DNA of 64,000 nt from Peribacillus kribbensis DSM 17871 (GTDB taxonomy: Bacteria > Bacillota > Bacilli > Bacillales > DSM-1321): contig NZ_KE387237.1 in assembly GCF_000430765.1 (NCBI RefSeq), positions 172,459 through 236,458 on the forward strand. Direction: 5' to 3'. Shown in pieces: positions 5,863 to 63,220 of the stretch; the stretch's first letter is position 1, and each line of letters starts with the position of its first letter. The position numbers and the translations under genes were made by a program. The notes beneath the pieces were generated by a model, which worked only from the letters and a program-made list of their open reading frames with translations, was not told where the DNA came from and did no database searches.

Positions 5863-7554
5863 TTGGAGAAAATCTGGATAAAAAATTACCCGGAAAAAAT
5901 TCCGTCCTCATTGGAGTACATTGATCAGCCGCTGCAATTCTATTTAAGCAGCTCTGCCAGGAAGCACCCGGATAAATGTGCGATCCATTTTATGGGCCGC
6001 AAATTGAGCTTCAAACAGGTTTATGACTCAGCATTGAAGTTCGCTCATTATCTAAGGGGTCTAGGGGTAAACAAAGGAGACCGGGTTGCCATAATGCTGC
6101 CCAATACTCCGCAGTCCGTCATCGCTTATTTTGGCTCGCTGATAGCAGGTGCAGTCGTGGTCCAGACAAATCCGCTGTATATGGAAAGGGAGCTGGAGTA
6201 CCAAATGAAGGATTCCGGCGCAAAAGTCATTTTGACGCTTGACATCCTTTTTCCCAGAGCTGAAAAAGTCCTGCCTCAAACCAATCTTGAACACATCATC
6301 GTAACTGCCATCAAAGATTTCCTGCCATTTCCTAAAAATCTCATTTATCCTTTCATCCAGAAAAAACAATATAATATGGTCGTAAACGTAGAGCATGAAG
6401 GCAATTATCATTTGTTTACTGAAATTATGAAGCAGGAAGCAAAAGGAGAATGGGAGCTTGGGCTTGATGTGAATGAAGATCTCGCTTTGCTTCAATACAC
6501 AGGAGGAACCACAGGATTTCCAAAGGGAGTGATGCTGACCCATAAAAACCTGGTTTCCAATGCGCAGATGTGCTCAGCCTGGCTTTATAAGGACAGTGAT
6601 GAAAATAGAAATATATTGGGAATTCTTCCGTTCTTTCATGTGTTTGGGATGACAACTGTAATGATTTTATCGATTATGGAAGGCTGCAGAATGACACTGC
6701 TGCCCAAATTCGATGTGCTTACGGCCTTAAAGACCATTCAAAAGGAAAAGCCTACATTGTTCCCCGGAGCGCCGACCATGTATATCGGTCTTTTGAATCA
6801 CCCGAAGCTGAAAGATTATGATCTTTCTTCAATCAAGGCCTGTATAAGCGGATCGGCCCCTCTCCCCATTGAAGTCCAGGATAAATTTGAAGCTTTGACC
6901 GGGGGAAAGCTAGTGGAGGGATATGGACTGACAGAAACGTCGCCTGTCACACATGCCAACTTTTTATGGGACCGCCCCCGGGTGAAAGGGAGCATCGGTG
7001 TCCCCTGGCCCGATACAGAAGCAGCCATTTTGTCTGCTGAAAACGGAGAAGAATTGGGGCCGAAAGAAATCGGGGAGCTGGCCATAAAAGGCCCGCAGGT
7101 TATGAAGGGATACTGGAACAGACCGGAGGACACAGCGGAGACTTTTAAGAATGGCTGGCTTTTAACGGGAGATATAGGCTATTATGATGAAGACGGATAT
7201 TTTTATATTGTCGACAGGAAAAAGGATATGATTATAGCCGGCGGCTTTAATATCTATCCAAGAGAAATCGAAGAGATTCTATATGAACATGAAGCTGTCC
7301 TTGAAGCTGCTGTTGCGGGTGTGCCTGACCCATACCGCGGGGAGACCGTAAAGGCCTTCATTGTTCTAAAAGAAGGAAAAACTGTAACTGAACAGGATAT
7401 GGACGCTTTTGTCAGAAAGCATCTGGCAGCGTACAAGGTTCCCAGAATCTATGAATTCCGGAGCTCGCTCCCGAAAACAGCAGTAGGCAAAATTCTCCGC
7501 AGAATCCTGATTGAAGAGGAAAAGAAGAAGTTAGACGATCAAAAGAATGCGTAA
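5863..7554 (+). CDS. lcfA: Long-chain fatty-acid-CoA ligase
   Basis: Acyl-CoA synthetase of the ANL superfamily, 563 residues; it activates long-chain fatty acids with ATP and CoA at the membrane to feed beta-oxidation. The AMP-binding P-loop YTGGTTGFPKGV is near residue 212, GYGLTETSP near 352, the hinge region RKKDMIIAGGFNIYPREIEE near 451 and the C-terminal catalytic lysine in GKILRR near 542. It starts at TTG 5863 after GGAGGGGAAGG. It heads lcfA-fadR-fadB-etfB-etfA as in B. subtilis. Confidence 0.95.
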   Translation: MEKIWIKNYPEKIPSSLEYIDQPLQFYLSSSARKHPDKCAIHFMGRKLSFKQVYDSALKFAHYLRGLGVNKGDRVAIMLPNTPQSVIAYFGSLIAGAVVVQTNPLYMERELEYQMKDSGAKVILTLDILFPRAEKVLPQTNLEHIIVTAIKDFLPFPKNLIYPFIQKKQYNMVVNVEHEGNYHLFTEIMKQEAKGEWELGLDVNEDLALLQYTGGTTGFPKGVMLTHKNLVSNAQMCSAWLYKDSDENRNILGILPFFHVFGMTTVMILSIMEGCRMTLLPKFDVLTALKTIQKEKPTLFPGAPTMYIGLLNHPKLKDYDLSSIKACISGSAPLPIEVQDKFEALTGGKLVEGYGLTETSPVTHANFLWDRPRVKGSIGVPWPDTEAAILSAENGEELGPKEIGELAIKGPQVMKGYWNRPEDTAETFKNGWLLTGDIGYYDEDGYFYIVDRKKDMIIAGGFNIYPREIEEILYEHEAVLEAAVAGVPDPYRGETVKAFIVLKEGKTVTEQDMDAFVRKHLAAYKVPRIYEFRSSLPKTAVGKILRRILIEEEKKKLDDQKNA

Positions 7555-11122: not shown

Positions 11123-11125
11123 AGC

Positions 11126-11164
11126 AAAAAAGCAGCTGGCAGCAAGCCGGGCTGCTTTTTTTTT
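11126..11164 (+). terminator. Rho-independent terminator after etfA
   Basis: AAAAAGCAGC and GCTGCTTTTT arms followed by a run of 9 Ts. The A-rich left side means it can also stop psiE transcripts arriving from the other strand. Confidence 0.9.
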
Positions 11165-11178
11165 CTGGCTGGTACCTC

Positions 11179-11595
11179 CTAGTGCTTTTCCTTCGCCAGA
11201 TTTAACATATAAAAACTGATCACCAGGACCAAAACCGATGAACTGAAAATAAAAGTATTCATCGGACTGTCATGATACACAACAATTAAACGAATCAGTG
11301 CCGTTATGCCAATATAAAGAAAATAACGCATCGGGAAATGATATAGTTCCTTAAAATACTTTACAATTAGGGCGGTTAATTCAAAATACAAAAAGAAAAC
11401 AAGAATCCGCTCGAGAAATTGGTAGTGGTTATGTATGGCAGTTGTCAAAAAGGCATAACGGATAAAATAGATAATCTCTTTACCGAGCAAAAAGCACAGA
11501 ACAATGCCCAGTAAAACCAAGGCAGTATTCAATGCATATTGAAAGATTAATGAAAGCTTTACATGTATTCTCTGTTCTTTTTGGTCCTTTATCAT
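11179..11595 (-). CDS. psiE: PsiE family membrane protein
   Basis: A 138-residue protein with four hydrophobic segments and the PsiE signature YHFPMRYFLYIGITALIRLI near the third. PsiE was named as phosphate-starvation-inducible in E. coli; its biochemical role is unknown. I prefer ATG 11595, since GGAGGG lies 7 bases upstream; an upstream ATG at 11628 would add 11 residues and has no good ribosome site. It is transcribed toward etfA, converging on the shared terminator, and its upstream side abuts the 123-bp repeat array. Confidence 0.82.
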   Translation of the reverse strand: MIKDQKEQRIHVKLSLIFQYALNTALVLLGIVLCFLLGKEIIYFIRYAFLTTAIHNHYQFLERILVFFLYFELTALIVKYFKELYHFPMRYFLYIGITALIRLIVVYHDSPMNTFIFSSSVLVLVISFYMLNLAKEKH

Positions 11596-11728
11596 CCTTT
11601 TGCCCTCCAGTTTTATAATTTTCTCCAAAAATCAGGATGACATTCGGAGATCAGGCTGTTTTCGTAATGTTATTAGGACGAACAAAAATAGGATGGATTT
11701 GAAGCGAAAGCCGCGGGATGCTGGGCGA

Positions 11729-12199
11729 GAGCAAAAACCGGTATAGTGTGAGCAAAAATCCAGGGAGCCCGAGCAAAAACCCTGGATTCTTGAGCAAAAA
11801 ACTGATAAGCCTGAGCAAAATCTGGGCTATGCTGAGCAAACCCAAGGTCGTGAGCAAAAACCGGTAAAGTGTGAGCAAAAATCCAGGGAGTCCGAGCAAA
11901 AAACCCGGGGTCTTGAGCAAAAATCCTCTCAGCCTGAGCAAAATCTCGGCCATGCTGAGCAAACCCAAGGTCGTGAGCAAAAACCGGTATAGTGTGAGCA
12001 AAAATCCAGGGAGTCCGAGCAAAAACCCTGGGGTCTTGAGCAAAAATCCTATCAGCCTGAGCTAAATCTCGGCCATGCTGAGCAAACCAAAGGGCGAGAG
12101 CAAAAACCGGTATAGTGTGAGCAAAAATCCAGGGAGCCCGAGCAAAAACCCTGGGGTCCTGAGCAAAAACCTCATAAGCCCGAGAAATCTGGATAATCC
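11729..12199. repeat. 123-bp higher-order tandem repeat of GAGCAAAAA units
   Basis: Twenty-three consecutive units begin with GAGCAAA or a close variant. Units are 21 bp except every sixth, which is 18 bp, giving a higher-order period of exactly 123 bp (5 x 21 + 18). Copies start at 11729, 11852, 11975 and 12098; the fourth is cut short. Copies are similar but not identical. In each copy unit 2 contains CCAGGG and unit 3 usually contains CCCTGG, so a hairpin is possible. There are no unique spacers and no cas genes, so it is not CRISPR. All unit lengths are multiples of three, which keeps several frames open on both strands. Confidence 0.95.
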
Positions 12200-12410
12200 A
12201 AAATGCTATAAAACCACTATTCACACCAGAGAACCAGCCCTTAAATTTATCTCTCTATTAAAGGTTTAAATGTAAGAGGGGAAGGGAATTATTATTATAT
12301 GACACGCGGCACTGGATGCGGGTGGCTTTTTCCTTTGTTTGGGAATATTATAGATCCTGTCAGGGTACATTACTCCTGAAACAAATTATTAACGCATCTG
12401 CGGTTATTAA

Positions 12411-12461: not shown

Positions 12462-12776
12462 ATGGCAATTTCACATGCAACTGATCAAAACTTTACTGAT
12501 GAAACTAGCCAAGGGCTTGTCCTAGCTGATTTCTGGGCACCATGGTGCGGACCTTGTAAGATGATTGCGCCAGTTTTGGAAGAGTTGGATTCTGAAATGG
12601 GTGAAAAAGTTAAGATCGTTAAATTAGATGTTGACGATAATCAAGAGACTGCCGGCAAGTTCGGCGTTATGAGCATCCCTACTTTGATTCTTTTCAAAGA
12701 TGGAGAAGCAGTAGATAAAGTGGTAGGATTCCAGCCTAAAGAAGCACTTGCTGAATTAATCAGCAAACATTCCTAA
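12462..12776 (+). CDS. trxA: Thioredoxin
   Basis: A 104-residue thioredoxin. The active site [11 protein letters not shown] places the redox cysteines at residues 29 and 32; the cis-proline loop [12 protein letters not shown] is also present. It reduces protein disulfides in the cytosol, including ribonucleotide reductase and peroxidases, and is reduced by thioredoxin reductase, which is not in this window. GGAGG (12448-12452) lies ahead of the ATG. Single-gene unit with its own terminator. Confidence 0.97.
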
Positions 12777-14794: not shown

Positions 14795-14829
14795 CACTAA
14801 TATTCAAATTACTTTATTAAATTAAAGTG

Positions 14830-15000
14830 ATGATAGAGGTGCGATTTTCAATAGTAGAGGTCTGGAGAAGTGTGAGCTTCAGAGAAGGATCTTGAAAGGG
14901 AGTGTCGCCGAAGCGGAAGCAGGCTCATACCTGTTTTAGCTGGTCCTGCATTGAAGAAGTGCAGGATTGTCAAGATTTTATCTTGGAGAGCTATCTCACT
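14830..15000 (+). ncRNA. Lysine riboswitch (L-box)
   Basis: The conserved L-box elements appear in order: AGAGGTGCG (14835-14843), an AGTA element soon after, GGGAGTGTCGCCGAAGCG near 14898-14915, and GGAGAGCTATCTCA closing the P1 side. Lysine binding is expected to favour the terminator at 15036-15066 and so switch off lysC. The position directly before an aspartokinase gene supports the assignment. Confidence 0.93.
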
Positions 15001-15035
15001 GTGTTTACGTATTATTTTTTTAGTACGTCCTTCAC

Positions 15036-15066: not shown

Positions 15067-15139
15067 GTATTCTCTTCATAGCATACAGAATGAAGGTTAA
15101 ACGGTGGAAGCTTTCACGAAATCAACAGGAGGGTTCAAA

Positions 15140-30933: not shown

Positions 30934-30974
30934 TTTCAAACTGCTTTCATTTTTTTGAAATTTACTATAATAGC

Positions 30975-31270
30975 GAAAGCGCGGATGAGGATAAGTAGTC
31001 TAGAGACAGGCAGGATCAGAGAGCCGGGAAAGCTGGGAGCCGGCACTGCCCCTTTGGGTGAACTCACCTCAGAGCTCCAGCTTGAAAGGTCTCCGATTAG
31101 AGCTGGACGGGTAAGTCATTACCCGTTATCAAAGCGGAAGCTATTTGCTTCCATAAGTGCGCACGAGACGTGCGAATCAGGGTGGTACCGTGGAAAGGGA
31201 ATTATGCCTTTTCACCCCTTTACTTCTGTATAAGTTACAGGAGCAGAGTGGGTGAAAAGGCTTTTTATTT
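30975..31270 (+). ncRNA. T-box leader, leucine-specific
   Basis: Conserved T-box features: stem I opening GCGGATGAGGATAAGTAG, specifier loop GAA-CTC-ACC with Leu codon CTC at 31063-31065, and the T-box AGGGTGGTACCG at 31179-31190. The terminator arms are GCCTTTTCACCC (31206-31217) and GGGTGAAAAGGC (31250-31261), then Ts. Uncharged tRNA-Leu should favour the antiterminator and allow ilvB-leuD expression. Confidence 0.93.
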
Positions 31271-62953: not shown

Positions 62954-62974
62954 TTAAACATATAAAAGAAGAAG

Positions 62975-63220
62975 CGCAGACAGGGAAAAGTACAGAAATA
63001 ACTGCTTTTAGAGAGAGGGGCTGACACGCTGAAAGGCTCCTTAAGCAAGTGTTTGCTGGAAGTCACCCTTGAGCTGTTTCCGTGAACGTATATAGTAGCG
63101 GAAACCGGTGCAGAGCCGTTATCTAACTTCAAGTGCCGGATTTGGCTTGTTCAGTCCGGAAAAAAGGTGGTACCGCGAAATCAGCTCCTTTCGTCCTTTT
63201 AAGGCGAGAGGAGTTTTTAT
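62975..63220 (+). ncRNA. T-box leader, valine-specific
   Basis: The specifier loop GGAA-GTC-ACC shows the Val codon GTC at 63062-63064; the T-box AGGTGGTACCGCG is at 63165-63177. The terminator pairs CTCCTTTCGTCCTT with AAGGCGAGAGGAG (ending 63213), then TTTTT. Uncharged tRNA-Val should promote read-through into valS. Confidence 0.93.

Follow-up and report, generated by a model that had tools for sequence, protein, structure and literature searches.

Intergenic arrays of a short conserved core, candidate protein-binding sites about two helical turns apart, in Peribacillus kribbensis DSM 17871 and related Bacillaceae

The STAR elements of staphylococci are dispersed intergenic direct repeats with a short conserved core, and their function is unknown (PMC3532100). 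Their core of 14 bp, T(G/A/T)TGTTG(G/T)GGCCC(C/A), is combined with spacers of at least 40 bp (40-44 bp) (PMC3532100). Here, we analyzed a window of 64,000 nucleotides, which is the whole stretch of DNA presented from P. kribbensis DSM 17871. It contains an array that departs from the STAR elements, as far as the same source describes them, in its 9-bp core, its 9-12-bp spacer, a core that varies between close species, and its multi-unit blocks (PMC3532100). Among the matches listed, the open-licence literature gave no account of such arrays in Bacillaceae.

The array in the window and its counterparts

The array occupies positions 11729-12199 of the window (plus strand). It consists of 22 units with the core GAGCAAA(AA) and one decayed unit, arranged in five steps of 21 bp followed by one of 18 bp. 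A sequence-only reading had described it as an exact 123-bp repeat, made of 23 uninterrupted units of one motif, in four copies starting at 11729, 11852, 11975, and 12098. These starts and the step pattern 21-21-21-21-21-18 are exact, as was found by direct reading, Tandem Repeats Finder, and unit parsing. Tandem Repeats Finder reported the range 11729-12184 with a period of 123, 3.7 copies, 91% matches, and 0% indels. The sequence itself is inexact, and the blocks are 87-94% alike. The three full blocks (11729-11851, 11852-11974, and 11975-12097, all on the plus strand) were pairwise identical at 110/123, 110/123, and 115/123 positions. The fourth (12098-12199, plus strand) is incomplete, with its last unit decayed, and was identical to the other three at 80/86, 75/86, and 79/86 positions. 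Units matching GAGCAAA with at most one mismatch numbered 22 and reached position 12181, while the 23rd had decayed to GAGAAAT. The core word is not uniform either: it is mostly GAGCAAAAA, in the fifth unit of the block GAGCAAAAT (once GAGCTAAAT), and in the 18-mer GAGCAAACC. The likeness of the same unit position across copies was confirmed, since units, core included, were 90.6% alike at the same block position and 58.5% at different positions; this supports the proposed growth of the array through duplication of the 123-bp block. Among 100 order-1 Markov windows, GAGCAAA chains reached a length of 1 in 98 and of 2 in the other two, and a chance origin of the array is excluded. The block count could be an assembly effect in this 38-contig draft.

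The array sits in a divergent gap. On its left side lies a PsiE family gene (11179-11628, minus strand; PF06146, E 3e-19), which points away from the array across a gap of 101 bp. On its right side, an open reading frame (12462-12776, plus strand) starts 263 bp past the array and presumably codes for a thioredoxin-like protein, judging by its WCGPC motif. Elsewhere in the window, a lysine riboswitch was located at 14826-15001, upstream of a gene at 15104 that we take to be aspartokinase-like, and two T-box leaders were located at 30973-31222 and 62968-63201.

A search for similar arrays in the same genome and in relatives had been set beforehand as the test of the sequence-only reading, and arrays were found in both. 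In the 5.05-Mb draft genome, the 9-bp core formed 42 exact pairs with a step of 18-21 bp and the 7-bp core 97 pairs; the reversed control gave 0 in each case. The core GAGCAAAAA forms eight arrays (in the window, on C5, two on C7, and on C10, C13, C14, and C24) and an isolated pair on C2. The spacers are specific to each array, and an 18-bp step occurs at least once in all eight. A second core, CGAGCATGATT, forms arrays with the same step at at least five further places (L222:5257-5879, L223:4500-4890, L224:5659-5924, L225:4656-4778, and L014:2786-2911). The L222 array contains a repeated 173-bp block, and the array of L014, on C14, directly adjoins a GAGCAAAAA array. Descent of all arrays in this genome from one ancestral block was considered and found unsupported, as spacer likeness between arrays was 0.369 at the same block position versus 0.362 at different positions; a permutation test (75/2000) gave a weak hint.

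The arrays of relatives use other cores (GCGAGCAA, TACTCGTGA, and TTYAAACGAAAA), with mean steps of 20.2-20.9 bp. Within the same genus, G001 carries arrays of a core around CGAGCA (consensus TTGCGAGCAA; 88 exact pairs versus 4 in the control), and G002 gave one pair with a control of 1. The unit CAAAYACTCGTGARTTTGGAG, at no more than two mismatches, was found in at least 16 of 43 family genomes, all of one genus among the matches listed, and 13 of the carriers have three or more cores at one of two sites examined. Arrays of TTYAAACGAAAA with at least two units were present in 12/13 and 14/15 of the stretches fetched at pattern hits in G034 and G042, respectively. The family search with the window-type pattern gave matches in 10/43 genomes, seven of them with a single match, and its reversed control matched G020, G034, and G042. 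Of the 397 genomes searched in the order, 13, spread over 11 of 136 genera, matched the triple GAGCAAA pattern, and four (G034, G095, G340, and G360) matched its reversed control. The reversed-control matches in G034 and G020 turned out to be real arrays of other cores. With the short pattern, matches came from all 7 genomes; since the controls also gave 7-16 per genome, arrays were counted from runs of matches only. An array of some core is present in at least 17 of the 43 family genomes.

The regions surrounding etfA at 80 loci, most of them from named Bacillaceae and picked regardless of repeats, were covered by a core-blind scan, which recorded words repeated at least five times at lags of 10-60. 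The matches had lags of 20-22 (L038 and L083), 10-11 (L038, half), and 40-42 (L083 and L088, double), the last of which in L088 equals two units; no other period was found. All three arrays lie within etfA-trxA-uvrC gaps, and their cores differ again. L054 has a shorter array. The trxA-uvrC gap of L016 (about 5950-6100) holds a G+C-rich repeat-like element, CTGCAGGCGCGAGACTCCTGCGGG..., which we take to be a common Bacillaceae intergenic repeat and which is absent from the window at up to three mismatches. Two further tandem arrays were seen in passing. A nearly perfect 20-bp one, AAACGAGCACAAATTCAGAT, is located at G034:C66:19233-19398 and G034:C112:36135-36200 and is unlike the other arrays of that genome; a perfect 21-bp one, AAACGACCGGAATTGGCGAGT, with another core again, is located at G020:C1:3656080-3656148.

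Core, spacer, and step

As the blocks were copied whole, core and spacer should be equally old. With units recognized by their core, which favors the core in such counts, mismatches between the block copies of the window amounted to 1/144 in the core and 27/186 in the spacer (p about 1e-6). This result supports the selection that the sequence-only reading had suggested. The same comparison gave 14/297 versus 91/383 for three arrays of the genome of the window, 19/198 versus 54/248 for four arrays of G001, and 26/396 versus 135/527 for nine arrays of G012/G031; the last are not independent, because some occupy the same sites in both genomes, and their best block period is often two units. The G001 array L098 showed no contrast (5/54 versus 7/68). 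Half of the arrays (16/32, including all eight of G042) lacked a clear block period and gave no value. For ten orthologous array pairs of G034/G042, some of them poorly aligned, the differences were 51/539 in the core, 58/326 in the spacer, and 568/3803 in the flank, with p about 5e-4 for the core against either of the others. Since conservation is much stronger in the core than in the spacer, the core looks selected or needed for copying. The simplest reading of these sequences would be long-standing selection on the core and the step, with a freely drifting spacer; core-dependent copying would also fit. A core that is kept while the letters between vary points to a DNA signal read by some factor. 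The contrast might also be a mutational effect, in which an A-tract or similar sequence context mutates less without selection, and the core in the genome of the window is indeed A-rich. The contrast holds for TACTCGTGA too, which is not an A-tract, and we consider this explanation quite improbable.

The mean single steps in four core families were 20.47 (n = 134), 20.19 (n = 70), 20.88 (n = 83), and 20.75 bp (n = 32), and whole steps spanned 17-23 bp, mostly 18-21. The slots in the genome of the window are nearly all filled, with 134 single steps, one double, and one other. Two helical turns of DNA correspond to about 20.5-21 bp, and the parC site of pSK41 has a period of 20 bp. With two turns at about 21 bp, the arrays lie near helical register, and this register may matter for them. 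At 10.5 bp per turn, a step of 18 bp falls out of phase, which counts against the helical-phase reading.

The best reading, which we hold tentatively, is that of dispersed intergenic arrays of putative protein-binding sites two helical turns apart. Most likely, the 9-bp core would be the site of a cooperatively binding, possibly oligomerizing protein, with one complex per two helical turns (about 20.5 bp). Selection would act on the core and its spacing and leave the spacer to drift, and the arrays would grow and shrink through duplication or loss of single units and blocks. Some observations count against binding sites. Inside G031 arrays, some cores have decayed, as judged by eye, and cores differ between close species, so that the putative factor would need a changed specificity.

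Unit number changes at conserved sites. At a site between convergent genes, at least one core (no more than one mismatch) was present in 16/26 genomes and at least two in 14/26, with up to 23, and at a second site 12 of the 30 genomes given (32 matched) had three or more; the more distant genomes had none or one. Arrays of G034 and G042 at the same site differ by whole units. The sequence-only reading had set the order of the array against random slippage. That contrast was not supported, since the conserved sites of relatives gain and lose whole 21-bp units, a change expected from ordinary slippage or from unequal recombination.

The main rival, which we rate as rather unlikely, is a selfish minisatellite. 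Its core would be needed for copying, for example as a nick, pairing, or recombination site, so that units would propagate only with their core intact; there would be no gain for the host, and arrays would persist where they are harmless, away from promoters. The number of cores at one site, which ranges from 1 to 23 among species, agrees with this. So does the result of a blastn search for window 11123-12328 (psiE and the array) in two P. deserti loci (L016 and L017), which found nothing like it at the same place. In a selfish repeat, there is no obvious reason why most steps should stay within 18-21 bp when the spacers are unrelated, and the smaller change of the core than of the flank in orthologous arrays is explained less simply by drive alone.

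Siting, strand, transcripts, and reading frames

A rough gene caller placed 42 of 44 arrays, including those of G012, G031, and G042. The arrays lie between genes, in 18 convergent, 20 tandem, and 4 divergent gaps, a siting that resembles that of REPs. For background, 128 gaps with lengths of 150-1500 bp were taken from the window and from 20-kb stretches of G000 and G001; 18 of these gaps were convergent, 81 tandem, and 29 divergent. The excess of convergent gaps among the pooled arrays (18/42 versus 18/128) had p about 2e-4 and was not seen in the genome of the window alone (3/12 arrays). The rarity of divergent gaps (4/42 versus 29/128, p 0.07) speaks for the selfish minisatellite, and the divergent siting of the window array counts against binding sites. 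Many arrays lie near gene 3' ends. Of the 18 convergent arrays, 14 were tested for intrinsic terminators, and 13 had one between a gene end and the array, 3 of them on both sides. These counts are for arrays alone, and a few of the terminators overlap the array edge by some bases. No shared theme or target gene was present among the flanking genes examined, which is also what a selfish repeat would give. Ten flanking proteins, one from each of ten of the twelve loci with fetched flanks, belonged to families other than ParR. As there is no common gene theme and the position beyond a terminator is frequent, the arrays that we read as binding sites would probably act at the level of the chromosome, in local structure or by insulating the gaps between transcription units, and not in the regulation of single genes.

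The core is on the G-rich strand in 8/8 GAGCAAAAA arrays and on the other strand in 4/4 CGAGCATGATT arrays, and the fifth (L014) shares the strand of its neighbor. A leading-strand or replication rule was rejected as a general one, because other genomes show none (6/10, 7/11, 5/15, and 3/11 on the G-rich strand). An origin from mobile elements was also set aside, as plasmid and phage records had no match with the low-complexity filter of BLAST on. Among 2.9 million viral contigs, 25 matched the triple GAGCAAA pattern and 0 the G012-type unit. One viral contig (L239:10003-10180) has GAGCAAA triples on both strands within 180 bases.

If the arrays acted at the RNA level, such as by folding or by binding proteins within the 3' untranslated regions of transcripts, their frequent position near gene 3' ends would be accounted for. 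In a fold test with 40 shuffles of the spacers each and at most 12 units, the strand opposite the core folded better than the shuffles (z <= -2) in 10/32 arrays, down to -4.25, and the core strand in 1/32. The orientation in tandem gene pairs was also consistent per family, being opposite to the genes in 6/7 cases in G042 and with the genes in 3/3 cases in the genome of the window. Against this stand the arrays with no such fold (22/32 on the opposite strand and 31/32 on the core strand), the terminators that separate a gene end from most of the convergent arrays tested, and the window array, which matched no Rfam family at the gathering score. The fold signal is uneven between arrays but not nothing, and it leaves room for an RNA role; we consider an RNA-level element improbable.

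A protein-coding repeat is hardly credible. A minus-strand frame of 183 aa is open across the window array, and a stop-free frame exists in 4 of 12 arrays. The remaining 8/12 are stopped in every frame, and elsewhere the frame is lost at steps of 20, 19, and 22, so this explanation was set aside.

Significance and comparison with known systems

We know of no explanation for a near-constant period combined with an apparently selected core that differs from one close species to the next. Should the arrays have a binding protein, this factor would be new, associated with the chromosome, and quick to change its specificity. Otherwise, they would represent a bacterial satellite whose spread is driven by its core. 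The presence of arrays in so many genomes of the family makes either view testable immediately. These loci, whose unit number varies between species, might be of use in strain typing. As a speculative extension, which we judge unlikely, the arrays may belong to a chromosome-organizing system of Bacillales. Its sites, two turns apart, would be read by a protein that forms filaments or arrays, this protein and the core word would change together across species, and one genome could carry two such systems. Fast-evolving satellite DNA of eukaryotes and its binding proteins offer an analogy for such joint change.

Among the described systems, the parC iterons of type II plasmid partition, which are bound by ParR, are similar in having tandem sites, with parC bound by a protein superhelix, and differ, in the account given by this source, in forming a single locus upstream of the par operon, while the arrays here are spread over many chromosomal loci (PMC5016525). 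A search with PF10784 (ParR) gave nothing in the genome of the window and likewise nothing in 14 control genomes. The TAACTGA heptamer repeats of Beggiatoaceae, Cyanobacteria, and Bacteroidetes share the character of short-word intergenic direct repeats, with up to 43 copies; they have another core, a single one across distant phyla, and in the Guaymas Beggiatoaceae they lie mostly just upstream of start codons (PMC4679880). REPs and BIMEs are likewise extragenic, clustered, and regularly spaced, and they differ in that REPs are palindromic, alternate in orientation in BIMEs, and flank a transposase (RAYT) gene (PMC2817692). When both strands were searched, the matches within each array of the genome of the window were on one strand. 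The core GAGCAAAAA is not palindromic, and the G001 consensus has arms TTGC and GCAA that flank GA.

STAR elements have a start signature, GTGGGACAGAAATGAT (PMC3532100). The arrays of the genome of the window share no edge by eye. The STAR core TNTGTTGNGGCCC occurred 0 times in this genome, 1 time in G001, and 0 times in G002, with 0, 0, and 2 in the reversed control. Since the core is absent from the genome of the window and the period differs, the arrays are not STAR elements. The likeness, to the extent that the source sets it out, lies in locus-specific spacers, a unit number that varies at stable sites, and sites that differ by species (PMC3532100). Among the systems compared, STAR elements are the closest in style to the arrays described here.
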